From: Hyphomicrobiales bacterium | GTDB taxonomy: Bacteria > Pseudomonadota > Alphaproteobacteria > Rhizobiales > Rhizobiaceae | Assembly (NCBI GenBank): GCA_900489925.1 | Contig: UEHQ01000012.1 | Location: 372,001 to 436,000, forward strand | Reading direction: 5' to 3' | DNA length: 64,000 nucleotides | Shown: positions 10,640-51,283 of the stretch, piece after piece | Layout of the letters: each line of letters begins with the position of its first letter | How positions within the stretch are numbered: position 1 is the first letter of the stretch | The notes under the pieces: model-generated | What the model saw: only the letters and a program-made list of their open reading frames with translations | Told to the model about the DNA's origin: nothing | The model's database searches: none | Position numbers and translations under genes: made by a program

Positions 10640-11644
10640 TCAGTCGCGCGGCTTGGTGCTCCGCTCCGCCAGAAATTCTGCGTGAAGCTTATCCAGTCTC
10701 TCAGTCAGGAACGCAGCGAAGTCCGGCACGACGCGCTCATCGAAGGTGATACGCGTCTTCTTGCCGGACGGCTCGATAAGCGCCGCATTCTGTCCCTTGG
10801 CATTTTTCCAGTGCGTACCGACGTCCCCGGCCCTTTTCACCTGCGCCACCGCAGCCAGCACCTTGGCGAAGCGTTCATCCGACGGAAGCGAGAGAAAATC
10901 GCCACCGACCAGCAGGGTCTCGACGTCCTCTCCCCTTGCGCCGATGGCATCGGCTAAGCCTATCCACCGCGAGCGTCCTGCCTTGGGCGCCGGCCCGATT
11001 GCCTGTACGACGGCCTCCGGTATGGAACGCGCGACTGAGATGTACCGGCTTAGATCCCCCTTGTCGGTGGAGAGTGCCGCGGCGATCACATCGCGCTGGT
11101 AACCGGCATCCTCCAGGCGTCGGGCAAACAGCGCCTTCTCGATATAGGAGAGATCTTGCCGGTCCAGGTTTTCTTTGCCCTGCGCGATAACCAGCTCGTC
11201 ATCGGTCAGGTTCTGGACGATCGCTCTGACCTTGCCGCCAATAGCCACCGCAGCGCGCAGTCGCCGCCGCCCATATGCGATCTGATAGTGGCCGGCTCGG
11301 GCCGGCTCGGGCCGAACGAGAATCGGCACCTGCTGGCCATGCTCCCGGATACTCGCAACGAGGTCGTCGAAACCGGGATCGACATCGATAGTGATGCGAT
11401 CGCTGACCGAGGAATTTGTAACCACACTCGGGTCGAGCTCGATGATGAAAGTACCTGAGGCAAGCTGCTCCTGCAGGCGCGCCGCCGCGCGGGCGCCCTC
11501 GCTCATTTCCTGCAGCGACGCCCCCATTGCCGATATGGCGCCGGTGCGAACGCGATCCGCATTCTTCTCTGCCCCGGGCGGCGGCGCTGCGGATGCTTCG
11601 GGCTTCCTCATGAAGAGCGAATTAACGGTGTCTTTTCTGCTCAT
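10640..11644 (-). CDS. repB: RepB/ParB-type partition protein of orphan repAB pair
   Basis: A 334-residue centromere-binding protein. The start at 11644 gives MSRKDTVNSLFMRKPE, the typical RepB N-terminus; an upstream in-frame start would include non-homologous sequence. The ParB/Srx-like domain is seen at about 65-170 (GQQVPILVRPE, YGRRRLRAA, AQGKENLDRQDLS), followed by a helix-turn-helix (YQRDVIAAALSTDKGDLSRYISVA). It follows repA on the same strand with two parS-type palindromes in the spacer. There is no repC downstream; instead two small plus-strand genes follow. The pair therefore looks like a stand-alone partition module or the remnant of a second repABC replicon. Confidence 0.88.
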   Translation of the reverse strand: MSRKDTVNSLFMRKPEASAAPPPGAEKNADRVRTGAISAMGASLQEMSEGARAAARLQEQLASGTFIIELDPSVVTNSSVSDRITIDVDPGFDDLVASIREHGQQVPILVRPEPARAGHYQIAYGRRRLRAAVAIGGKVRAIVQNLTDDELVIAQGKENLDRQDLSYIEKALFARRLEDAGYQRDVIAAALSTDKGDLSRYISVARSIPEAVVQAIGPAPKAGRSRWIGLADAIGARGEDVETLLVGGDFLSLPSDERFAKVLAAVAQVKRAGDVGTHWKNAKGQNAALIEPSGKKTRITFDERVVPDFAAFLTERLDKLHAEFLAERSTKPRD

Positions 11645-11701
11645 GCGGAAATCCTGCCAATGGAACTGCACACAGCGGCACTGCCACTCGAAAGAGCCCC
11701 C

Positions 11702-11717
11702 GTTGGGAGCTCCCAAC
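11702..11717. promoter_or_regulatory. parS-type palindrome, copy 1 of orphan repAB
   Basis: GTTGGGAGCTCCCAAC is a perfect 16-bp palindrome fitting the repABC centromere form GTTNNNNGCNNNNAAC. It lies in the repA-repB spacer, 58 bases upstream of repB. Confidence 0.75.
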
Positions 11718-11818
11718 GAGACGCCACCCCATGACCGGTGGCACGCCTTATCGCCGCGCTACCACCCCAAGAGCGTCGAGTGGGTCCTACTTCAAGCGAA
11801 ACCGATAACGCGAGATAT

Positions 11819-11834
11819 GTTGGGAGCTCCCAAC
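11819..11834. promoter_or_regulatory. parS-type palindrome, copy 2 of orphan repAB
   Basis: A second identical copy of GTTGGGAGCTCCCAAC, 117 bases from the first and 18 bases past the repA stop. Two identical sites in one spacer support a true centromere. Confidence 0.75.
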
Positions 11835-11852
11835 TTTTGGACGCCCCTCCTC

Positions 11853-13082
11853 TCATCGCTTGTTGCGCCCCCACGCCGCTCTGATCATTCCCTCCACTTC
11901 CGCGTTGACCGCGTCCAGCGACTCCATCGCGCGGTCATAGGTCGTGCGGGTCAGATTCTCTCGGCCGACCTCGTATAAGGTTTGCTTGGTCAACCCGGCG
12001 TCCGAGACGGCTGCGGATTTCACCATCGGGTTGGTCATGACGCTATCGTCGAATAGATTGCGCAGGAGTGCGGCAACCTTGGTCTGCGGCGCATCCTGAG
12101 GCTCAAAGCGCGTCAGCAGATAGCGGATGAAATCGTAACGAAGCTCACCGCCCGCTTCTCTTACAACAGCCAACAGGTCCTGCGTCATCAGCAGGAACTG
12201 GCTCATGGATGCGATGTCGAGCATCTGCGGATGCACCGTGACGATCATGGATGTCGCGGCGCACAGCCCGCTCAGCGTCAGATAGCCCAACTGCGGCGGG
12301 CAATCGATCACCACAACGTCGTAACGATCCGCAACGTCATCGAGCGCGCGGGCAACGCGCATGAAGAAGATCTCGTCGGCCTCCTTCTTCCCGCTGGTCA
12401 GCGCCCGTGGTGTCGTATGCTCGAACTCCATGAGTTCCAGGTTGCCCGGAACGAGGTCGAGACCATTGAAGTATGTCTGGCGAACCACGTCGCTCAACGG
12501 GCGTCGCTCATCGTCATAGCGTATGGCAGCATAGAGCGTTTCGTTTGCCCCGACGTCTGTCTCCGGCAGCACTCCGAGGAGGGCGGACAGACTTGCCTGC
12601 GGATCAAGATCCACCGCAAGCACACGATACCCCTGCAGGGCCAGATATTGCGCGAGGTGCACCGATGTCGTCGTCTTCCCGGATCCGCCCTTGAAATTCG
12701 TGACGGCAAGGACCTGCAAGTGATCATCCGGCCCACGGCGCGGCAGAAAATCGTGCGCGTCGCGCCCGCGCGCGGTCGCGGCCAGGCGCTGACGCAGTTC
12801 ATTGATCTGCGCGAGGGAGTAGAGCCGGCGGCCGTTGCTGGTCACCTCGGGCTGCGGCCCGTCACCCGCCAAACTCATCTTGCGCAGAGTGGAGTCGGAG
12901 ATACCCATGAGCTTCGCCGCTTCGCCCGACGTAAATCGCCGCAGCAGCTTGCTCGCCGCAGGCGGAAAGATGACCTCACTGATTGCCTGCAACTGCGAAC
13001 TGAGGATCGACGCATGCTCGCCGATGGCCTCGTCCACGGTCTTTTGCGCGGCAGCCTTGGAAGATCGAAGTAGCTTGTTCAC
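11853..13082 (-). CDS. repA: RepA/ParA-type partition ATPase of orphan repAB pair
   Basis: A partition ATPase of about 409 residues. An N-terminal helix-turn-helix (FTSGEAAKLMGISDSTLRKMS, about 50-75) precedes a ParA domain with a deviant Walker A KGGSGKTTT (about 130-140), Walker A' DLDPQASLSA and Walker B VVVIDCPPQLGYLTL. This is the repABC-type RepA layout. The start is uncertain: GTG at 13082 or TTG at 13088. Its closest relative in the window is the RepA at 24723-25931. The two differ along most of their length, so this is not a recent duplication. Upstream lies a CtrA-like motif shared with the other repA. Confidence 0.9.
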   Translation of the reverse strand: MNKLLRSSKAAAQKTVDEAIGEHASILSSQLQAISEVIFPPAASKLLRRFTSGEAAKLMGISDSTLRKMSLAGDGPQPEVTSNGRRLYSLAQINELRQRLAATARGRDAHDFLPRRGPDDHLQVLAVTNFKGGSGKTTTSVHLAQYLALQGYRVLAVDLDPQASLSALLGVLPETDVGANETLYAAIRYDDERRPLSDVVRQTYFNGLDLVPGNLELMEFEHTTPRALTSGKKEADEIFFMRVARALDDVADRYDVVVIDCPPQLGYLTLSGLCAATSMIVTVHPQMLDIASMSQFLLMTQDLLAVVREAGGELRYDFIRYLLTRFEPQDAPQTKVAALLRNLFDDSVMTNPMVKSAAVSDAGLTKQTLYEVGRENLTRTTYDRAMESLDAVNAEVEGMIRAAWGRNKR

Positions 13083-13171
13083 GGTCAAAAACTTTCGTCA
13101 CGGATAAAATGCAGTTTCGGTGTTTAAACCGTGACGATAAGGAAATGCGCGATTCGTGCAAGATTTTTTTG

Positions 13172-14141: not shown

Positions 14142-14636
14142 ATGCTGACGAGACGCATTCTGCTCGGGAACGTCGCGCTCGTTTCGGTGGTGGCAGGAAT
14201 TTCGCTCAACGGCCCCGCAGCGGAAGCCAACAGCTCCTTTGCGGTGACGCATACGGATGCGGAATGGCGCAAACTGCTTACCACAGCACAATATTCAGTC
14301 CTGCGAGAGGGTGACACCGAACAGCCGTTCACCAGTCCGCTACTAGACGAGCACCGCAAGGGCAAGTTCGCCTGCGCAGGCTGCAACCGGGATCTATTCA
14401 CATCCGCGACGAAGTTCGACAGCGGCACAGGCTGGCCGAGCTTCTGGGCGCCCCTCGACGCCGCGGCGGTCGGCATCACCGCCGACACGTCGTTTGGCAT
14501 GGTTCGCAAGGCTGTCCATTGCTCGCGCTGCGGCGGGCACCTCGGTCACGTCTTCAATGACGGCCCGAAGCCAACGGGGTTGCGATATTGCCTGAACGGC
14601 ATTGCGCTGCAATTCCATCCGGCATCAGGCACGTAA
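14142..14636 (+). CDS. msrB: Exported peptide-methionine (R)-S-oxide reductase
   Basis: A 164-residue MsrB with an N-terminal export signal (MLTRRILLG plus a hydrophobic stretch, cleavage near AAEA). The twin Arg suggests Tat or Sec export. Zinc-binding pairs CAGC and CSRC, the GTGWPSF motif, HLGHVF and the catalytic C150 in RYCLNG are all present. It reduces the R-sulfoxide of methionine in periplasmic proteins. It is first in a run of four reductase genes, with an exported MsrA directly after it. The end of its frame overlaps the beginning of a longer alternative frame for that msrA, but the chosen msrA start avoids this. Confidence 0.9.
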   Translation: MLTRRILLGNVALVSVVAGISLNGPAAEANSSFAVTHTDAEWRKLLTTAQYSVLREGDTEQPFTSPLLDEHRKGKFACAGCNRDLFTSATKFDSGTGWPSFWAPLDAAAVGITADTSFGMVRKAVHCSRCGGHLGHVFNDGPKPTGLRYCLNGIALQFHPASGT

Positions 14637-14664
14637 CGTGTGCGCTTGTAGAAAGGAGCCCATC

Positions 14665-15396
14665 GTGAAGAAGGAATCCACAATGCCTCGTCGTTGGCCC
14701 GCACTCGCCATATGCGCGACAGCAATGGCGCTTGCCATCGCTGCCGGTGTCGAGGTCACAGCCTCATCGGCAGAACAGGCACGCACCATTCCTGCCCCCA
14801 CACAGGACGAACGGAAGAATACGCAGACAGAGACGGCCCTTTTGGCCGGTGGCTGCTTCTGGGGCGTTCAGGGTGTGTTTCAGCATGTCAAAGGCGTTGT
14901 CAGCGCGAAGTCCGGCTACGCCGGTGGTAACAGGAATACCGCCCAGTATGAGACTGTGAGCAACGGCGATACCGGCCACGCCGAGTCTGTTGAGATTGTT
15001 TTCGATCCAGCAAAAGTCAGCTATGGCCACCTGCTTCAGATCTACTTTTCGGTCGCGCATGACCCGACGGAGCTGAACCGCCAAGGCCCTGACACGGGAA
15101 CGCAGTATCGCTCGGCGATCTTTCCAACGACACCGGAGCAGGCGGCCGTCGCCAAGGCCTATATCAGCCAGCTCAATCATTCGCATGTCTTCGATGGCCC
15201 GATCGTCACCAAGATCGAACCCGGGAAAACATTCTACCCGGCGGAGAATTATCACCAGGACTTCCTGACAAATAACCCAACCTATCCCTATATAGTGATC
15301 AACGACTTGCCGAAGATCGAACACCTCAAGCAGTTGTTTCCCATGGATTACCGCGCCAGGCCCGTCCTGGTCTCGGCTAAGGGTTCAACTGATTGA
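14665..15396 (+). CDS. msrA: Exported peptide-methionine (S)-S-oxide reductase
   Basis: An MsrA of about 243 residues with an N-terminal signal sequence (MPRRWPALAIC followed by an Ala-rich helix, cleavage near ASSA). The catalytic C64 lies in AGGCFWGVQ; GYAGG, HDPTELNRQGPDTGTQYRSAIF and YHQDFL are family hallmarks. The GTG at 14665 has AAAGGAG 6 bases upstream and is chosen. The ATG at 14683 with AAGGA upstream is a good alternative and would keep the whole signal peptide. It complements the preceding exported MsrB by reducing the other sulfoxide epimer in the periplasm. Confidence 0.9.
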   Translation: MKKESTMPRRWPALAICATAMALAIAAGVEVTASSAEQARTIPAPTQDERKNTQTETALLAGGCFWGVQGVFQHVKGVVSAKSGYAGGNRNTAQYETVSNGDTGHAESVEIVFDPAKVSYGHLLQIYFSVAHDPTELNRQGPDTGTQYRSAIFPTTPEQAAVAKAYISQLNHSHVFDGPIVTKIEPGKTFYPAENYHQDFLTNNPTYPYIVINDLPKIEHLKQLFPMDYRARPVLVSAKGSTD

Positions 15397-15423
15397 TGGC
15401 AGGTCATTGATAGGAGATCTCAA

Positions 15424-15873
15424 ATGCAGCCTTACAGCAAAAGCGCGGCGGCCATATCAAAGCTCTCGCCGGAACAGTACCGTGTGACGCAACAGGCCGG
15501 CACGGAACGGCCGGGGACCGGCGAATACCTCAACAACAAGGAACCGGGGATCTACGTTGATATCGTCTCCGGCGAGCCGCTCTTTGCCTCATCCGACAAA
15601 TACGAATCCGGTTGCGGATGGCCAAGCTTTACCAAGCCGATCGAAGTGGAGAACGTTAGCGAATTGACCGACCGTTCTCACGGCATGCTCCGCACCGAAG
15701 TTCGCTCGACCCACGGCGACAGCCATCTCGGCCACGTGTTTCCCGACGGTCCCGCCGACAGGGGCGGCCTGCGCTATTGCATCAATTCGGCATCCCTGCG
15801 CTTCGTCCATCGTGACAAGATGGAAGCTGAAGGCTATGGGGCCTATCTCAACCAGGTGGAGGAAGTTCAATGA
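15424..15873 (+). CDS. msrB: Cytosolic peptide-methionine (R)-S-oxide reductase
   Basis: A 149-residue MsrB without a signal peptide. [20 protein letters not shown] and [11 protein letters not shown] carry the active site. It lacks the two CxxC zinc pairs present in the exported MsrB (FASSDK and RSTHGD at those places), so it is the zinc-free subtype. AGGAGA precedes the ATG. Its stop overlaps the next gene by four bases (ATGA), implying co-translation with the cytosolic MsrA. Confidence 0.9.
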
Positions 15874-16379
15874 CAACAGAACGTGCAGTGCTCGCCGGTG
15901 GTTGCTTCTGGGGTATGCAGGACCTCATCCGCCGCTATAACGGCGTCATCTCAACCCGCGTGGGCTACACCGGCGGCGAGGTTCCGAATGCGACCTATCG
16001 CAACCACGGCAATCACGCCGAAGCGATCGAGATCATCTTCGATCCTGCGAAGATCAGCTACCGTGATCTCCTCGAGTTTTTCTTCCAGATTCATGACCCG
16101 TCGACTCTGAACCGACAGGGCAACGATTTGGGCGCAAGCTATCGTTCCGCAATCTTCTATACCAGCGACGAACAGAAGCGCGTTGCCGAAAAAACTATCG
16201 CGGACGTCGATGCCTCCGGCCTCTGGCCGGGAAAGGTCGTGACCGAAGTGACGCCGGCGAGCGATTTCTGGCAGGCCGAACCCGAGCACCAGGATTATCT
16301 GGAGCGCATACCCAATGGATATACCTGCCATTTCGCCAGGCCCGGTTGGAAGCTTCCGAGTCGGCACGCAGCCGCCTAG
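15870..16379 (+). CDS. msrA: Cytosolic peptide-methionine (S)-S-oxide reductase
   Basis: A 169-residue MsrA, compact and without a signal. The catalytic C12 is in [37 protein letters not shown] and EHQDYLE complete the family pattern. It is translationally coupled to the preceding MsrB and closes the four-gene msr cluster. A short inverted repeat with T-rich flank follows. Confidence 0.92.
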
Positions 16380-16467: not shown

Positions 16468-16590
16468 CGTTCACGGCCGAGAGCGTGATATTGCGCCGAT
16501 GCGCCCTAAGCATCCCGCCCAGCGCATAGCGCATGGCTGACCTGCAGATTTCTGCCTACCTTTTGAGCTCAGATCCTGTATATACATATT

Positions 16591-16748
16591 CATCGAAGCG
16601 ATGCACCTCCTCCCGCAGCGCTTCGAATTGCAGGCGACCTTCTCCTCCTCCCAAGGGCGCCTGTGGAACAACAGCACTCCTCCTCCCAGCTGTTGTTCGG
16701 TTATTTCAAGAAAGCCTGCCGCACCTCCTCCCGCGGCAGGCTTTTTTT
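16591..16748 (+). ncRNA. Four-hairpin anti-Shine-Dalgarno sRNA (alpha-r14/NfeR1-like)
   Basis: Four successive stem-loops each present the same CCTCCTCCC loop: stems CGAAGCG/CGCTTCG (loop motif 16606-16614), CAGGCG/CGCCTG (16644-16652), AACAACAGC/GCTGTTGTT (16679-16687) and AAAGCCTGCCGC/GCGGCAGGCTTT (16724-16732). The last stem runs into seven or more T residues and is a strong rho-independent terminator. The loop sequence is complementary to the ribosome-binding site core GGGAGGAGG. Repeated anti-Shine-Dalgarno loops define the rhizobial alpha-r14 family (NfeR1) and related regulators of osmoadaptation and symbiosis, which act by base-pairing with mRNA ribosome-binding sites. The 5' end is approximate; a TATATA-like -10 lies near 16579. 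Strand is set by the terminator. Confidence 0.8.
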
Positions 16749-16868
16749 GTATTCAGCGGTCTGCAAAGAGGTTGTCGAGAACAGGAACGACTCGTCGAGC
16801 GTTTCGAGAGAAACGTCAATGCCGCGGCAGTGACCACATAAACGTCACGGGGCTATAGGCGTGCATAT

Positions 16869-22244: not shown

Positions 22245-23456
22245 TTACGCGACTTGAGCAGATGATCCGTGTCCACGCATCAGTGCCATGATCATCGGTC
22301 CAAGCGAGAACTCACCTCTGCGCGCCCGACCGGTCAGATCTCGAAGGTAGCCGCCCGGCGAATTGATGTGGCCTGACTTCTCGAAGATGCACGCCATGAC
22401 GGACGCGGCCGTCACCTGTCCCATGACCTCGCAAGCCTCCTCATACGCCGACGGGCTGACCCCAAGCATCGATCGAACGGTAACCGCCGCCATCATCAGA
22501 TCGCGCCAATTCTTGATGTCGCCCTCCGGCCCGTAGTCGCGGATGTCACGGCATGCCCTCAAGACCATCTCCAACGGAAATGCCTGAACCTTGATCTTGG
22601 GTCTGTCATCCAGATTGAGCGATTTCGCCTCCTGCTCTTTTTCAGAGCTAGGTTCAAGTTCATTGCTGGATTCGGTATTTGAATTCTGTTTGTGACGATC
22701 AAAATGACCATCATTGGCAGTCATATTTTGTGAAATTACCTGTTTTTCCAGCATATTGACGACTTCGTCGTGAAGTAGCGTCAGTTCTTCAGCGATCTCT
22801 GTGAGGTCGGCAATCGTCGGCGAGCGCGGAATACGTCCCGCTATCGCGATATAGTAATCTTCCACGCGAGACCAATCACCGGCAGCCCCCTCCTCTATCG
22901 CGGCAGAGATCAGCTTGCGAATATCTCGGCGGCAGAGAGAGACGCGTTCCTTGGCAGCCTTGAACCGCCGCTGCTCCGCGACAACTTCCTGCGCCAACAT
23001 CGCCAGTTCTTCCGAGCGCGCGAGAAGCGGTGCGAGACTGAACCCGTAAGCTTCCTGGATCTCGCCCTGGTTTCCCTTTCTGGCGTAGCGCTTTCCGTTT
23101 GGGCTATCTTTTCGTGAAATCAACCCCGCGTCGACGAGTGCCGCAAGGCTACGCCTCAGCGTGCTGCCGGATATACCATTCGAGCGGCTGGTCAGCTGCG
23201 CGTTCGAAGGGAACACCACCATTGGGCTGTCGCCTGATAGTTCCGCGTTTGGATAAAACGACAACAGGGCGTTCAGGACCGCCAATGCGCGATCCTGCAG
23301 CCCCAGCCGCGATCGAGCGTCGCATGCATCGCGATGGATCTTCCATTTGTCCACAGATTTACCAGAGGCAATGTCTGAGGCTTCGATCTGTCGTTTCACC
23401 AGCGCAAGCGACATCGAACGCCGTCCAAACGGCGTCGTAACGCTTAATCTCTCCAT
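22245..23456 (-). CDS. repC: RepC replication initiator
   Basis: A 403-residue RepC, the initiator unique to repABC replicons. The N-terminal winged-helix region contains LGLQDRALAVLNALLSFYP, MVVFPSNAQLTSRSNGISGSTLRRSLAALVDAGLISR and KRYARKG. The C-terminal domain has IKNWRDLMMAAVTVRSMLGVSPSAYEEA and AASVMACIFEKSGHINSPGGYLRDLT. RepC binds an AT-rich origin inside its own gene. It is the third gene of the minus-strand repABC operon, separated from repB by a spacer of about 200 bases that carries the antisense RNA. Confidence 0.95.
   Translation of the reverse strand: MERLSVTTPFGRRSMSLALVKRQIEASDIASGKSVDKWKIHRDACDARSRLGLQDRALAVLNALLSFYPNAELSGDSPMVVFPSNAQLTSRSNGISGSTLRRSLAALVDAGLISRKDSPNGKRYARKGNQGEIQEAYGFSLAPLLARSEELAMLAQEVVAEQRRFKAAKERVSLCRRDIRKLISAAIEEGAAGDWSRVEDYYIAIAGRIPRSPTIADLTEIAEELTLLHDEVVNMLEKQVISQNMTANDGHFDRHKQNSNTESSNELEPSSEKEQEAKSLNLDDRPKIKVQAFPLEMVLRACRDIRDYGPEGDIKNWRDLMMAAVTVRSMLGVSPSAYEEACEVMGQVTAASVMACIFEKSGHINSPGGYLRDLTGRARRGEFSLGPMIMALMRGHGSSAQVA
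22650..22760. other. Probable replication origin (AT-rich segment within repC)
   Basis: This part of repC is clearly richer in A and T than its surroundings and encodes a low-complexity Asn/Ser/Glu-rich linker. In studied repABC plasmids oriV lies in such an AT-rich segment of repC. The limits are approximate. Confidence 0.4.
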
Positions 23457-23559
23457 TTTCTTCTCTACCTTTTTCTAGGCAAAGAAATAGGGATCACCGG
23501 AAAGGCGTCGAATCTCACGCGAGACTCTTGACTGTGATTCTTGGAAGTGCGAATCTCGA

Positions 23560-23616
23560 AATCGCCAAAGATCGAGAAAGGGCCTTCTGAGACGCTGTTT
23601 CGGGGGGCCTTTTTTC
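23560..23616 (+). ncRNA. Antisense counter-transcribed RNA of repABC (incA type)
   Basis: The repB-repC spacer contains, on the strand opposite to the operon, a TTGACT box at 23528, a weak -10 at 23551, and about 55 bases later a GC-rich imperfect hairpin ending in GGCCTTTTTT. In repABC plasmids a short antisense RNA from this place represses RepC synthesis and determines incompatibility. Size, strand and position fit; the ends are estimates. Confidence 0.6.
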
Positions 23617-23659
23617 TTTTGCCGGTATATCTCCGTTCAAGGTGTTGGAATAACCGAAC

Positions 23660-24676
23660 TTAATGTTCGGCGCCGTCTTTACCTGCCTGCTCAGCTTCCC
23701 TGTATGCGTCGTAAAGCGCGGGAAGTTTCGCCGCCAGGTATCCTGCAAAGCCGTCGTTCTTCGCGCGATTGACGGATAGTCGCCACTGCGCGCTCGTCAT
23801 TGAAACCTTACCGATCTCCTCGCCCGACAAGGAAACGACCGACATGCTCGACGCCGGGACCTTGTCTTCATCGACCGCATTGGCCGCTGACAAAACCGCG
23901 ATGAACCTGTCGTCAGTCGCCTTCGTCCCCAGCTTGGCCGAGGCCATCGCTGCCGTGACGCGCGCCGACGCGCCAGGCGTCTTGAGAGCATCCGCCAGCG
24001 CCTGCCACCGGCCACGGCCAATCTTGGGGGCGCGCCCGATCGCGTCAACGATGTCGCGCGACAGCGCACGGGAAACGGCAATCAGCTTCGATACCTCCGC
24101 TCGATCGACAGAAAGTGCCGTCTGGATCAGCGCCCTCTGAAAACCCGCATCTTCCAGCCGCGCCGCAAAAACCGCCCGCTCGATGAAACTGAGATCCTCA
24201 CGCGCCGAATTCTCCAACCCCTGTGCGACGACAAGGTCTTCGTCGGAGAGCGGCCGGAGATAGGCCTTGACCGGCAGTCCTAGTTCTCTTGCCGCACGTA
24301 CACGCCGATGACCGTAAGCGCTCTGGAAGCGTCCAGCTATCGTCGGGTGCTGGCGTACGAGCACAGGAATTTCCTGGCCACGTTCGCTGATGGATGTTTT
24401 CAGGGCGTCAAAGGTAGCCGCGTCCTGTTCCACGAACCGGTCCGCAAGAGGCGAGGGGTCAATCAGTGTCGGATCGATCTCGATCGCGACCTGCCCGGTA
24501 GCAAGCTGCGCCCGCAGCGCCTCGTACTCACGCTCGACGTCGGAGAAGGTGTCCTTCAGGGAGCGCACTGCACCTGACGTAACGCGCGATAGCGTGGGTC
24601 GCTTCTGCTCGCCGGCATCAGCGCCTTCGGACTGCCCGGCAAACATCGATCGGATTGATTGTGTCCGCTTGTTCAC
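23660..24676 (-). CDS. repB: RepB/ParB-type partition protein of repABC
   Basis: A 338-residue ParB-type protein with a GTG start. The ParB/Srx fold is visible at about 65-175 (GQEIPVLVRQHP, YGHRRVRAARELG, AQGLENSAREDLS), followed by a helix-turn-helix (FQRALIQTALSVDRAEVSKLIAVSRAL). It is expected to bind the GTTGTCTGC(A/G)GACAAC parS sites at 22212 and 17229. It lies 46 bases after repA and ahead of repC in the same operon. Confidence 0.93.
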   Translation of the reverse strand: MNKRTQSIRSMFAGQSEGADAGEQKRPTLSRVTSGAVRSLKDTFSDVEREYEALRAQLATGQVAIEIDPTLIDPSPLADRFVEQDAATFDALKTSISERGQEIPVLVRQHPTIAGRFQSAYGHRRVRAARELGLPVKAYLRPLSDEDLVVAQGLENSAREDLSFIERAVFAARLEDAGFQRALIQTALSVDRAEVSKLIAVSRALSRDIVDAIGRAPKIGRGRWQALADALKTPGASARVTAAMASAKLGTKATDDRFIAVLSAANAVDEDKVPASSMSVVSLSGEEIGKVSMTSAQWRLSVNRAKNDGFAGYLAAKLPALYDAYREAEQAGKDGAEH

Positions 24677-24722
24677 ACGGTTATCCCTTCAGTCTGGTCG
24701 ATCGAAAAGAGTGCAGAAGAGA

Positions 24723-25931
24723 TCATCGGCCCCAGACCTCCGATATCATCGCCACCACTTCAGCGTTGACCGCATTGATGGACTCCATGGCGCGGTCATA
24801 GACCGAGCGCCCAACGGAACCCTTCGAAAGCTCATAGAGTGACTGCTTGGTCAGTCCGGCATTTGCAATTGCCGTCGATTTCCATGCTGTCGCGCGCAAA
24901 ACATCCGGTCCGAACAAGTCGCGAAGCAACCCGACGATCTCTTGCTCCGGCACGTCGCGTGGATCATGTCGCGTGACGACAAACTTCAGGAAGTCGTAGT
25001 TGAGATGGCCGCCGGCCTCCTCCAGGACAGACACAAGGTCCGCCGTCATCAGCAGGAACTGGCTCATCGAGGCCACATCAACCATCTGCGGGTGGATGGT
25101 GACCAACATTCCCGTAGCAGCATTCAGCGCGCCCATCGTTAGAAAGCCTAGCTGTGGCGGGCAATCGATCACGACAACATCGTAATCCGCTTCGATCTGA
25201 TCGATGGCGACGGCGACGCGCCGGAAGAACAAATCCTCCGGCCCCGTCCGCTTGCTCAGTGCCCTGGGCGTCTCGTGCTCGAACTCCATGAGCTCCAGAT
25301 TGCCCGGCACCAGATCGATTCCTGCAAAATAGGTCTTGCGAATAACAGACCGCATATCAACGCGGTCTTCGTCGTAACGGATCGCACCATAAAGCGTTGT
25401 GTTCGGCGCAACGTCGAACTCGGGCTGATATCCGAACATCGCCGACAGCGATGCCTGCGGGTCGAGATCGATTGCCAGAACCCGATATCCCTGCAGTGCC
25501 AGTCCCTGTGCCAGGTAGAGCGAGGTCGTCGTCTTCGCCGACCCGCCCTTGAAGTTGGCGACAGTGATCACCTGCAGCTTCTCGCCGGGGCGGCGGCGCG
25601 GCCAGAACTTCAGCGCTTCCTTCGGCCGCGCCTTGGCGAGGTACTCCCGAAGTTCGTTGATCTGCTCAAGCGTATAGGAACGCCGTCCCGCGGTGCCCAG
25701 CTCGGGCATGGGGCCGAGGCCATCAAGCGACAGCTGTCTGAGATACCCATCGGAGACGCCGACAATCTGCGCGACCTCGCCAGAGGTAAACGATCGCAGC
25801 GATTTCTCCGCCAACGGTGGAAAGGCGAGTTCGCCGACGGCGCGCAAACGGTCGGAAAGAGCCGACGCTTGACGCGTGATCCTTTGCGAGGTTGTCTCGT
25901 TTTCCAGTCGGGGCATCACAACTTTTAGCAT
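24723..25931 (-). CDS. repA: RepA/ParA-type partition ATPase of repABC
   Basis: A partition ATPase of about 402 residues, first gene of the repABC operon. N-terminal helix-turn-helix (FTSGEVAQIVGVSDGYLRQLS), deviant Walker A KGGSAKTTT, DLDPQASLSAMF and Walker B VVVIDCPPQLGFLTM are present. With RepB it partitions the replicon and represses the operon. The start is placed at the ATG at 25931 with GAAGAG upstream; a TTG at 25946 and an ATG at 25916 are alternatives. Confidence 0.93.
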   Translation of the reverse strand: MLKVVMPRLENETTSQRITRQASALSDRLRAVGELAFPPLAEKSLRSFTSGEVAQIVGVSDGYLRQLSLDGLGPMPELGTAGRRSYTLEQINELREYLAKARPKEALKFWPRRRPGEKLQVITVANFKGGSAKTTTSLYLAQGLALQGYRVLAIDLDPQASLSAMFGYQPEFDVAPNTTLYGAIRYDEDRVDMRSVIRKTYFAGIDLVPGNLELMEFEHETPRALSKRTGPEDLFFRRVAVAIDQIEADYDVVVIDCPPQLGFLTMGALNAATGMLVTIHPQMVDVASMSQFLLMTADLVSVLEEAGGHLNYDFLKFVVTRHDPRDVPEQEIVGLLRDLFGPDVLRATAWKSTAIANAGLTKQSLYELSKGSVGRSVYDRAMESINAVNAEVVAMISEVWGR

Positions 25932-26026
25932 TCGCAAGCTCTTCAAAACGGTTTCTGCGCGTCTGACGCATCCTTGCCGTCTGTGATTAGAGACACGATT
26001 CGATGAGTTCCGACAAGATCTTTAAG

Positions 26027-49870: not shown

Positions 49871-51196
49871 CTAGATCTTGCCGTCGTCCTTGAAGACCTC
49901 GGTCCAGTCCTTCACCAGCCCGTCCAGCGCTTCCTGGGCAGTCCCGTTACCGGCGACTACGTAGTTGTGGACGCGCTTCTGCATGTCCTGGAGCAGGGTG
50001 GCGTAGCTCGGCTCGGCCCAGAAATCCTTGACGATTGCCATGGAGTCCAGGAACGCCTGAGCATAAGGCTGGCTTGCTGCAAAGTCCGGCGCATTGATGA
50101 CCGCCTTCAGGCAAGAATAGCCACCAAGCTTCCACCATTTGGCCTGCACCTCAGGCTGGGCGAACCACTTGATGTACTGCAGCGCCGCATCCTTCTTGTC
50201 GGAGTAGGACACGACGGAGATGCCCTGGCCGCCAAGCTGCGCGAAATGCTCTTTCTCCGCAGGGTTCGGGAAGAACCCGATCCTGTCGCCGCCCACCTTC
50301 TCGTCCTTGTAGAGGCCGGGCCAAGTGAAGGCGAAGTTCATCTGCATGGCAACCTGGCCTGATTTGAAGGCATCAGCGGATTCGACCATGTAGACGTTGG
50401 AGCTGCCGGGCGGCGTGCAGCAATCATAGAGAGCCTTGTAGAACTCCAGACCCTTGACTGCTTCAGGAGAGTTGACGAAGCCTTCCATTTCATAGGGCTT
50501 CTTCGGGTTTTCGTACTGGAAACCCCAGTCGTAAAGGACGTTGGTCACGCCCATGGTGATACCTTCCGAGCCGCGCTCGGTGTAGATCGACGCGCCGTAG
50601 ACGGTCTTTCCATCGATCTCACGCTTCTGGAAAAACTCGGCGATCTGCTTCAGCTGATCATAGGTCTTTGGCGCCGCCAGTTCCCAGCCGTACTTTTCCT
50701 TGAATTCCTTCTTCAGCTCCGGTCTTTCGAACCAGTCCTTGCGATAGGTCCAGCCTACGACGTCGCCCATGGCCGGCAGCGCCCAGTAGTTTGGCGTATT
50801 CTTCGGCCACTCTGAATAACCCACGACTGTCGCCGGCACGAAGTCATCCATCTTGATGCCTTCCTTGTCGAAGAAGTCGTTCAGCTTGACATAGTGGCCG
50901 TTCTCGGCCGAGCCGCCGATCCACTGGCTGTCGCCGATGATCAGATCGCAAAGCTTGCCATGCGAGTTTAGTTCGTTGAGGAACCGGTCGGCGTAACTCG
51001 TCCACGGAACGAACTCGAACTTCATGTCCGTTCCCGTCTTGGCGGTGAAGTCCTTCGACAGTTCGACGAGCGCGTTTGCAGGGTCCCAAGCGGCCCAGCA
51101 CAGCGTCAACTGATCGGCTTTCGCGAGGTTGGGCAATGCCGACGACAACACGATTGCCGAGGCAAGCCCGATGAGGGCTTTCGATCTTTTCTGCAT
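49871..51196 (-). CDS. Sugar/polyol ABC importer substrate-binding protein
   Basis: A 441-residue periplasmic binding protein of the family 1 type. The signal peptide MQKRSKALIGLASAIV... is cleaved near LAKADQ. LCWAAWDPANALVELSKDF, FEFVPWTSYADRFLNEL and LIIGDSQWIGG resemble binding proteins of polyol/sugar importers. GGAGGAACTT precedes the ATG at 51196. It is the first gene of the operon that continues through two permeases, two ATPases and the ketose kinases, so the ligand is probably a polyol or ketose such as glycerol, dihydroxyacetone or a tetritol (inference). Confidence 0.92.
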   Translation of the reverse strand: MQKRSKALIGLASAIVLSSALPNLAKADQLTLCWAAWDPANALVELSKDFTAKTGTDMKFEFVPWTSYADRFLNELNSHGKLCDLIIGDSQWIGGSAENGHYVKLNDFFDKEGIKMDDFVPATVVGYSEWPKNTPNYWALPAMGDVVGWTYRKDWFERPELKKEFKEKYGWELAAPKTYDQLKQIAEFFQKREIDGKTVYGASIYTERGSEGITMGVTNVLYDWGFQYENPKKPYEMEGFVNSPEAVKGLEFYKALYDCCTPPGSSNVYMVESADAFKSGQVAMQMNFAFTWPGLYKDEKVGGDRIGFFPNPAEKEHFAQLGGQGISVVSYSDKKDAALQYIKWFAQPEVQAKWWKLGGYSCLKAVINAPDFAASQPYAQAFLDSMAIVKDFWAEPSYATLLQDMQKRVHNYVVAGNGTAQEALDGLVKDWTEVFKDDGKI

Positions 51197-51283
51197 AAGT
51201 TCCTCCCAGAACCAAAGCCGGCCCGGCCGGCAGCACAAGTTCACCCATTTCTAGAAAATGCTCACATGAACTCCTCGACCATC

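Follow-up and report, generated by a model that had tools for sequence, protein, structure and literature searches.

A four-loop ar14-type small RNA with repeated anti-Shine-Dalgarno loops in a plasmid region near repABC

The window analysed here (the whole stretch of 64,000 nucleotides) carries on its plus strand a short region in which one anti-Shine-Dalgarno sequence recurs four times, raising the questions of what kind of RNA is encoded there, where it begins and which mRNAs it might address. The motif CCTCCTCCC has exactly four occurrences in the 64 kb, always on the plus strand, at positions 16606, 16644, 16679 and 16724; the four copies span 127 bases, the count expected for the window is 0.5, and none of 100 shuffles reached a window count of four. 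Folding of the plus strand between 16591 and 16748 yielded four hairpins at 16593–16747, each with the 9-mer CCUCCUCCC in its loop, and a fold energy of −70.8 kcal/mol, compared with −41.7 (SD 3.7) for shuffled sequences (z −7.85; equalled by none of 200 shuffles). An earlier note on this DNA had described four hairpins with an identical 9-mer in every loop and a terminator at the end, and motif count and fold statistics confirmed this description. The elements are as follows (A1 and A2 are alignments introduced below).

16591–16748, plus strand: four-loop ar14-type small RNA of about 158 nt, ends placed by homology to SmelA099; fold z −7.85
16593–16626, plus strand: hairpin 1, extra 5′ module with the loop ACCUCCUCCC at 16605–16614; from folding, outside the Rfam match
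16630–16664, plus strand: hairpin 2, CCUCCUCCC at 16644–16652; from folding, two-sided changes in 4 of 11 pairs
16666–16698, plus strand: hairpin 3, CCUCCUCCC at 16679–16687; from folding, two-sided changes in 6 of 10 pairs
16708–16748, plus strand: hairpin 4 and T run, an intrinsic terminator, loop with CCUCCUCCC at 16724–16732; from folding, near-invariant among the four-loop copies aligned in A1 and A2

The stem-loop of hairpin 4 (16708–16747) continues into a run of seven T residues (16742–16748). A simple terminator scan listed no sites, hairpin 4 being missed because its loop of 10 exceeds the loop limit of 8 in that scan. A coding explanation for the region was dropped: none of seven small frames around the RNA, taken from both strands, had a Pfam match reaching a curated cut-off, frames 16533–16841 and 16601–16858 being without a Pfam match, and one minus-strand frame of the seven gave a chance-level match below the cut-off (E 0.035).

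With both strands searched, the sole Rfam match in the whole window was to RF02344.

16625–16748, plus strand: Rfam RF02344 (ar14) match, model positions 1–123 of 123; 109.7 bits, gathering score 58.8, E 2.2e-19

The covariance model, at 109.7 against 58.8 bits, bears out the ar14/NfeR1 assignment made in the earlier note. Hairpins 2–4, three hairpins with CCUCCUCCC in each loop, match the model end to end and have the same loops as the three-loop RNA NfeR1/SmelA075 (RF02344), whereas hairpin 1 is one additional 5′ hairpin. As the match begins after hairpin 1 in all four SmelA099-type copies checked (the window copy, L003, L105 and L106), the RNA comes out too short when annotated from Rfam alone. 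The four-loop SmelA099 has been described before (section 2.7 of PMC3927594) and is reported as a 160 nt RNA at 1328175–1328334 of Sinorhizobium meliloti pSymA (PMC2873474). On the minus strand of pSymA (NC_003037) this stretch contains four CCTCCTCCC at offsets 15, 52, 88 and 134 of 160 nt, begins with AATCGAAGCGATGC and has the same terminal hairpin as the window terminator. SmelA099 (RFMSmelA099, SmrA6) and the window RNA thus both have four CCUCCUCCC hairpins within about 160 nt and the 5′ hairpin ATCGAAGCGATGC, both are plasmid-borne, and they are 81% identical over aligned columns; they differ in that SmelA099 lies on pSymA, another replicon, and the window copy is known from sequence. 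The novelty that the earlier note had implied for four loops and plasmid carriage therefore does not stand, both having been published as SmelA099 of pSymA, and the window locus adds a member rather than a new kind. Judged by sequence matches, plasmid copies of ar14-type RNAs are common: 486 plasmid records match a 253-base query and 145 of them cover at least 80% of it, counts that reflect query coverage and not loop number.

Two elements were recognized in front of the RNA.

16531–16545, plus strand: promoter element GCATGGCTGACCTGC, located upstream at 61 nt from hairpin 1; the only GCAT-N-GCTG-N3-TGC match in the window
16578–16584, plus strand: likely −10 region GTATATA, from the GTAT kept in the alignment of 30 four-loop loci and the spacing to the SmelA099 5′ end

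The published 5′ end of SmelA099 aligns with position 16591. A simple sigma-70 scan listed no site, and no clear −35 was seen upstream of the RNA. Of 43 four-loop loci, 35 carried the pattern GCAT-N-GCTG-N3-TGC, as did 26 of the 36 three-loop loci, the count taking in L001–L078 (without duplicates), L105–L107, L109–L118, L125 and L126, and leaving out L079–L104 and the DUF1127-type loci (L119–L124, L127 and L128). With the first hairpin taken to start 14 nt before the first motif, the element begins 59–62 nt before that hairpin in 60 of the 61 loci having it, namely 60–61 nt for four-loop loci and, in most cases, 59–62 nt for three-loop loci, NfeR1-type copies thus sharing this promoter core at nearly the same distance. 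Because these distances are alike, three- and four-loop copies share a promoter architecture in which hairpin 1 falls inside the expected transcript. The nfeR1 promoter differs in one respect: its LsrB box is reported as TGCA-N6-GCAT at −72 to −60 (PMC10746234), and near the corresponding place the window reads AGCG-N6-GCAT, only the second half being matched. LsrB control of the window copy, with the published box half matched, may reasonably be supposed by analogy.

The source genome has five ar14 loci above the cut-off, with four loops in the window copy and in a copy on contig C60 and three loops in the other three, two of which have a degenerate third motif. A first search of relatives, comprising 61 genomes with the source genome included, gave a match in 46 and a match above the cut-off in 38; all 37 same-genus rows and 9 of 24 other rows had a match. 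Three exact motifs in a row, correctly spaced, occurred one or more times in 218 of 297 genomes sampled from the taxonomic family, and the reversed control pattern gave 0 among the rows listed. Examination of 63 loci (L002 was omitted as a duplicate of L035) returned 30 four-loop loci, 29 three-loop loci and four that failed the loop filter (L021, L027 and the four-loop loci L040 and L044, each with one degenerate motif), a four-loop share that is not a measure of frequency because most of the four-loop loci were found with the window's own sequence as query. Larger arrays occur in other genera: L099 contains, at 606–1580 (RNA strand), seven tandem three-loop ar14-like units spaced by 147–150 nt, with seven Rfam matches; L102 contains, at 1500–2390 (RNA strand), six tandem three-loop units at about 161-nt spacing, by motif count only; and L124 is a five-loop cluster in another genus. 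In three genomes one replicon bears a pair of copies separated by about 7 kb, namely in L108 (a R. grahamii plasmid; 9130 and 16242), where one of the two copies has a degenerate first loop, in G152:C65 and in G119:C41.

With five copies in one genome, the window copy might be a silent paralogue kept by plasmid carriage, a reading compatible with membership of the ar14 family. Reliable Northern detection in S. meliloti is reported for only one of six NfeR1 copies (PMC7143759), so the window copy could likewise be silent in many conditions, and within flanks of 1–2 kb msrA accompanies the window copy only. The four loops, the stems, the terminator and the promoter element of the window copy are, however, all intact, which is informative because some relatives have decayed loops (L040, L044 and L115), and we regard a silent paralogue as quite improbable.

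The stems were compared in alignment A1, made of 30 four-loop genus rows (28 distinct), in which 94.8% of cells pair, compared with 34.3–52.9% when the partners are slid, and 11 of 47 pairs show two-sided changes, a number reached in none of 500 shuffles. Structural conservation, on which the earlier note had let its reading depend, therefore held. Two-sided changes were distributed over hairpins 1–4 as 0 of 11, 4 of 11, 6 of 10 and 1 of 15 pairs. In hairpin 4 the changed pair is an outer one, unformed in 22 of 28 rows. As none of its 11 pairs changes on both sides, hairpin 1 is without covariation in A1; its outer and inner pairs are fixed and its middle is mismatched in many rows, one middle pair being unformed in 16 of 28, and free variation is confined to hairpins 2 and 3. 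The stems had been called ‘otherwise unrelated’, which is apt for hairpins 2 and 3, since these vary freely between species, but not for the nearly invariant hairpin 4 or the partly fixed hairpin 1. The terminator hairpin GCCTGCCGCACCTCCTCCCGCGGCAGGC is nearly invariant even across genera, although only a stem is needed.

A second alignment, A2, held 26 more diverse four-loop copies, among them the window copy, two S. meliloti copies and that of R. etli p42e. Pairs of hairpin 1 were counted on A1 and A2 and those of hairpins 2–4 on A1, hairpin 2 being poorly aligned in A2. When folded singly, all 26 copies place the motif of hairpin 1 in the loop (in L036 with its last base changed), and 90.7% of hairpin 1 cells are paired, compared with 27.1–49.0% after sliding. 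Two-sided changes occur in 3 of 10 pairs (shuffle mean 0.3; as many in none of 500 shuffles); they amount to four cells from two loci only, L117 and L125, the count of further pair types does not exceed that of the shuffles, 488 of 500 of which reach it, and a +3 slide gives two two-sided pairs. Because the pair changes in A2, the folds and the mapped SmelA099 5′ end come together, hairpin 1 is held to be a real structural module, on thin pair-change evidence; this extra first hairpin, absent from the Rfam model, looks structurally constrained. The transcript might instead be a three-loop ar14 RNA with the extent of the Rfam match (16625–16748), hairpin 1 being untranscribed leader or promoter DNA, as the start of that match after hairpin 1, the three hairpins described in reviews and in the NfeR1 paper (PMC7143759, PMC10746234), and the genus rows, with their unformed middle pair and lack of two-sided change in hairpin 1, would suggest. 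We consider this highly improbable, given that the promoter element keeps its distance to the first hairpin in four-loop and three-loop loci alike, that the published 5′ end of SmelA099 precedes hairpin 1 (PMC2873474) and that three hairpin 1 pairs are two-sided in diverse members.

Anti-Shine-Dalgarno stem-loops with a link to stress are also reported for CcsR1–4/CIN1 of Rhodobacter and other Alphaproteobacteria (PMC3927594, PMC10253847), but the CcsR RNAs are described as cut from a DUF1127 mRNA (PMC10253847), whereas the window locus is without a DUF1127 gene. That RNase E cuts the hairpins from such an mRNA, and that the small protein takes part in their maturation, is barely credible here and as a model for the window locus is largely refuted. 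In its favour, the 9-mer loops are the same, in L119 and L124, from two relatives belonging to other genera, the array comes after a DUF1127 gene as in Rhodobacter (PMC10253847), and the R. etli p42e copy has a DUF1127 gene annotated upstream; against it, the seven small frames around the RNA have no DUF1127 match, none of the nine DUF1127 genes found in the genome (150 of 191 candidates scored) is on the contig of the RNA, and the locus has its own promoter element. In L119 (361–507, plus strand) and L124 (647–787, minus strand) the DUF1127 genes, confirmed by Pfam, lie directly before the loop arrays, an arrangement like ccaF1–CcsR and the one described for CIN1 (PMC10253847). One three-loop copy of the source genome (L004; G000:C55, 24824–24943) is situated about 300 bases before two DUF1127 genes (25250–25797).

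We are highly confident that the locus encodes a four-loop ar14 (NfeR1/SmelA075/SmelA099) trans-acting small RNA with its own promoter and terminator that would silence transporter mRNAs by anti-Shine-Dalgarno pairing. Transcription would start from its own promoter, with a 5′ end near 16591, and end at its own terminator at 16748. Each loop would present the anti-Shine-Dalgarno 9-mer for pairing with G-rich ribosome binding sites of the GGGAGGAG type, and therefore any of the four could cover the start region of an mRNA, whereupon ribosome entry would be blocked and decay favoured. The anti-Shine-Dalgarno mechanism proposed in the earlier note agrees with published NfeR1 experiments: NfeR1 mutated in its three 9-mers is reported no longer to lower an ntrB reporter, these motifs are described as redundant, NfeR1 is called Hfq-independent, and two mRNAs for ABC transporters are named as confirmed targets (PMC10746234). 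By analogy, the same 9-mer in the window copy should act as in NfeR1. The likely trigger would be stress or nutrient state, acting via an LsrB-like LysR regulator; SmelA075 is reported to give a strong signal when the temperature is raised from 30 to 40 °C (PMC2873474). Silencing, redundancy of the loops, and control by stress and LsrB would in this copy follow the pattern of NfeR1 and SmelA075, from which we infer them. AbcR1/AbcR2 (ar15) are similar in having CU-rich anti-Shine-Dalgarno regions, ABC-transporter targets and, in S. meliloti, activation by LsrB, but represent another family with another motif and are reported to bind Hfq, whereas NfeR1 is Hfq-independent (PMC7143759, PMC10746234).

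The likely targets would be transport and uptake genes, above all those of ABC-importer binding proteins. Leaders in the genome matching eight bases of the loop complement were taken from all 30 places with GGGAGGAG and from 30 of the 36 places with TGGGAGGA, merged to 47 after removal of duplicates, and the 27 with a frame of at least 100 aa were kept. ABC-transporter components stood behind 10 of these 27 and behind 2 of 28 other strong leaders (Fisher p 0.0095, uncorrected and with categories picked after the hits had been seen), the ten being eight solute-binding proteins, one BPD_transp_1 permease and one ABC-2 membrane protein. The 28 control frames comprised nine from all 29 places of one leader and 19 from 30 of the 60 places of another; one of them, L230, is an internal start in kdpA. 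Across the genome the matching leaders did not outnumber other strong ones (30 places versus 29 and 60). With this target-class enrichment, as obtained by the uncorrected test, the observations on the window copy itself extend from structure, conservation, family membership and promoter element to its predicted targets as a class.

Within the window, duplexes with the loop were ranked for 44 genes hand-picked from the ORF list, taking for each the start of best energy within the first 50 codons, a choice that flatters the energies of all 44. The best was a Dak1 gene (−16.8 kcal/mol), whose match is irregular and whose ATG lies 12 bases into the listed ORF. Second was the following site.

51201–51208, minus strand: leader of an ABC-importer solute-binding protein (SBP_bac_1), TGGGAGGA; predicted duplex −14.9 kcal/mol, second of 44

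This site lies 4 nt before the ATG at 51196 in ORF 49871–51244, the start having been chosen by best energy, and the predicted duplex makes this gene, among those of the window with a clear leader, the best target candidate. The leader of the msrA gene directly before the RNA was third (−14.3 kcal/mol), and that of uxuA, with a weaker GGAGGA match, fifth (−12.4 kcal/mol). The earlier note had suggested pairing with ABC-importer and uxuA leaders, and the 8-nt TGGGAGGA match and the GGAGGA match are consistent with this at second and fifth place of the 44. Perfect targets in the window were sought and set aside, exact GGGAGGAGG occurring only opposite the RNA's own loops; sites of GGGAGGAGG with at most one mismatch numbered 22 in the window (its own four included) against 18.6 expected and thus were not in excess.

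The setting among partition genes, to which the earlier note had drawn attention, is real in that repABC lies about 5.5 kb from the RNA, all on the minus strand (RepC 22245–23456, RepB 23660–24676, ParA/RepA-like 24723–25946), but no tie between the two was found, the rep leaders standing in the lower half of the 44 window genes. Control of repABC by the RNA is not supported, the energies with the loop being −7.3 for repC, −6.7 for repB and −3.5 kcal/mol for repA (ranks 25, 32 and 40 of 44). A second pair of RepB and ParA/RepA-like genes is located at 10640–13088 (minus strand), some 9 kb away from the full repABC set (22245–25946), so that one replicon region holds two partition sets; among the 44 genes, the leaders of this pair gave −9.2 (rank 13) and −2.0 kcal/mol. 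Three methionine sulfoxide reductase genes (msrA, msrB, msrA) lie in a row directly before the RNA (14602–16379, plus strand). Conserved synteny with msrA was rejected, as the only tblastn matches to msrA among 60 loci (1–2 kb flanks) were those of two overlapping loci from the window itself.

The most likely function of the RNA is thus a stress-linked, redundant anti-Shine-Dalgarno silencing of transporter mRNAs, for which the ‘global’ reach suggested in the earlier note remains an inference. The locus represents an intact copy of an experimentally studied family carried in a plasmid region near repABC, and, as loop and copy number differ between genomes, the family offers a natural series for asking what is gained by repeating anti-Shine-Dalgarno loops. 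It is possible, if unlikely, that four-loop RNAs make up a separate branch associated with plasmids and have a job of their own, in which the nearly invariant terminator hairpin and the sequence-conserved first hairpin act differently from the freely varying middle ones. If this were true, the outer hairpins, both with short 10-nt loops, might be, for instance, fixed sites of binding or processing, and accessory replicons would each supply their own dose of a common anti-Shine-Dalgarno regulator, shifting the transporter use of their host.
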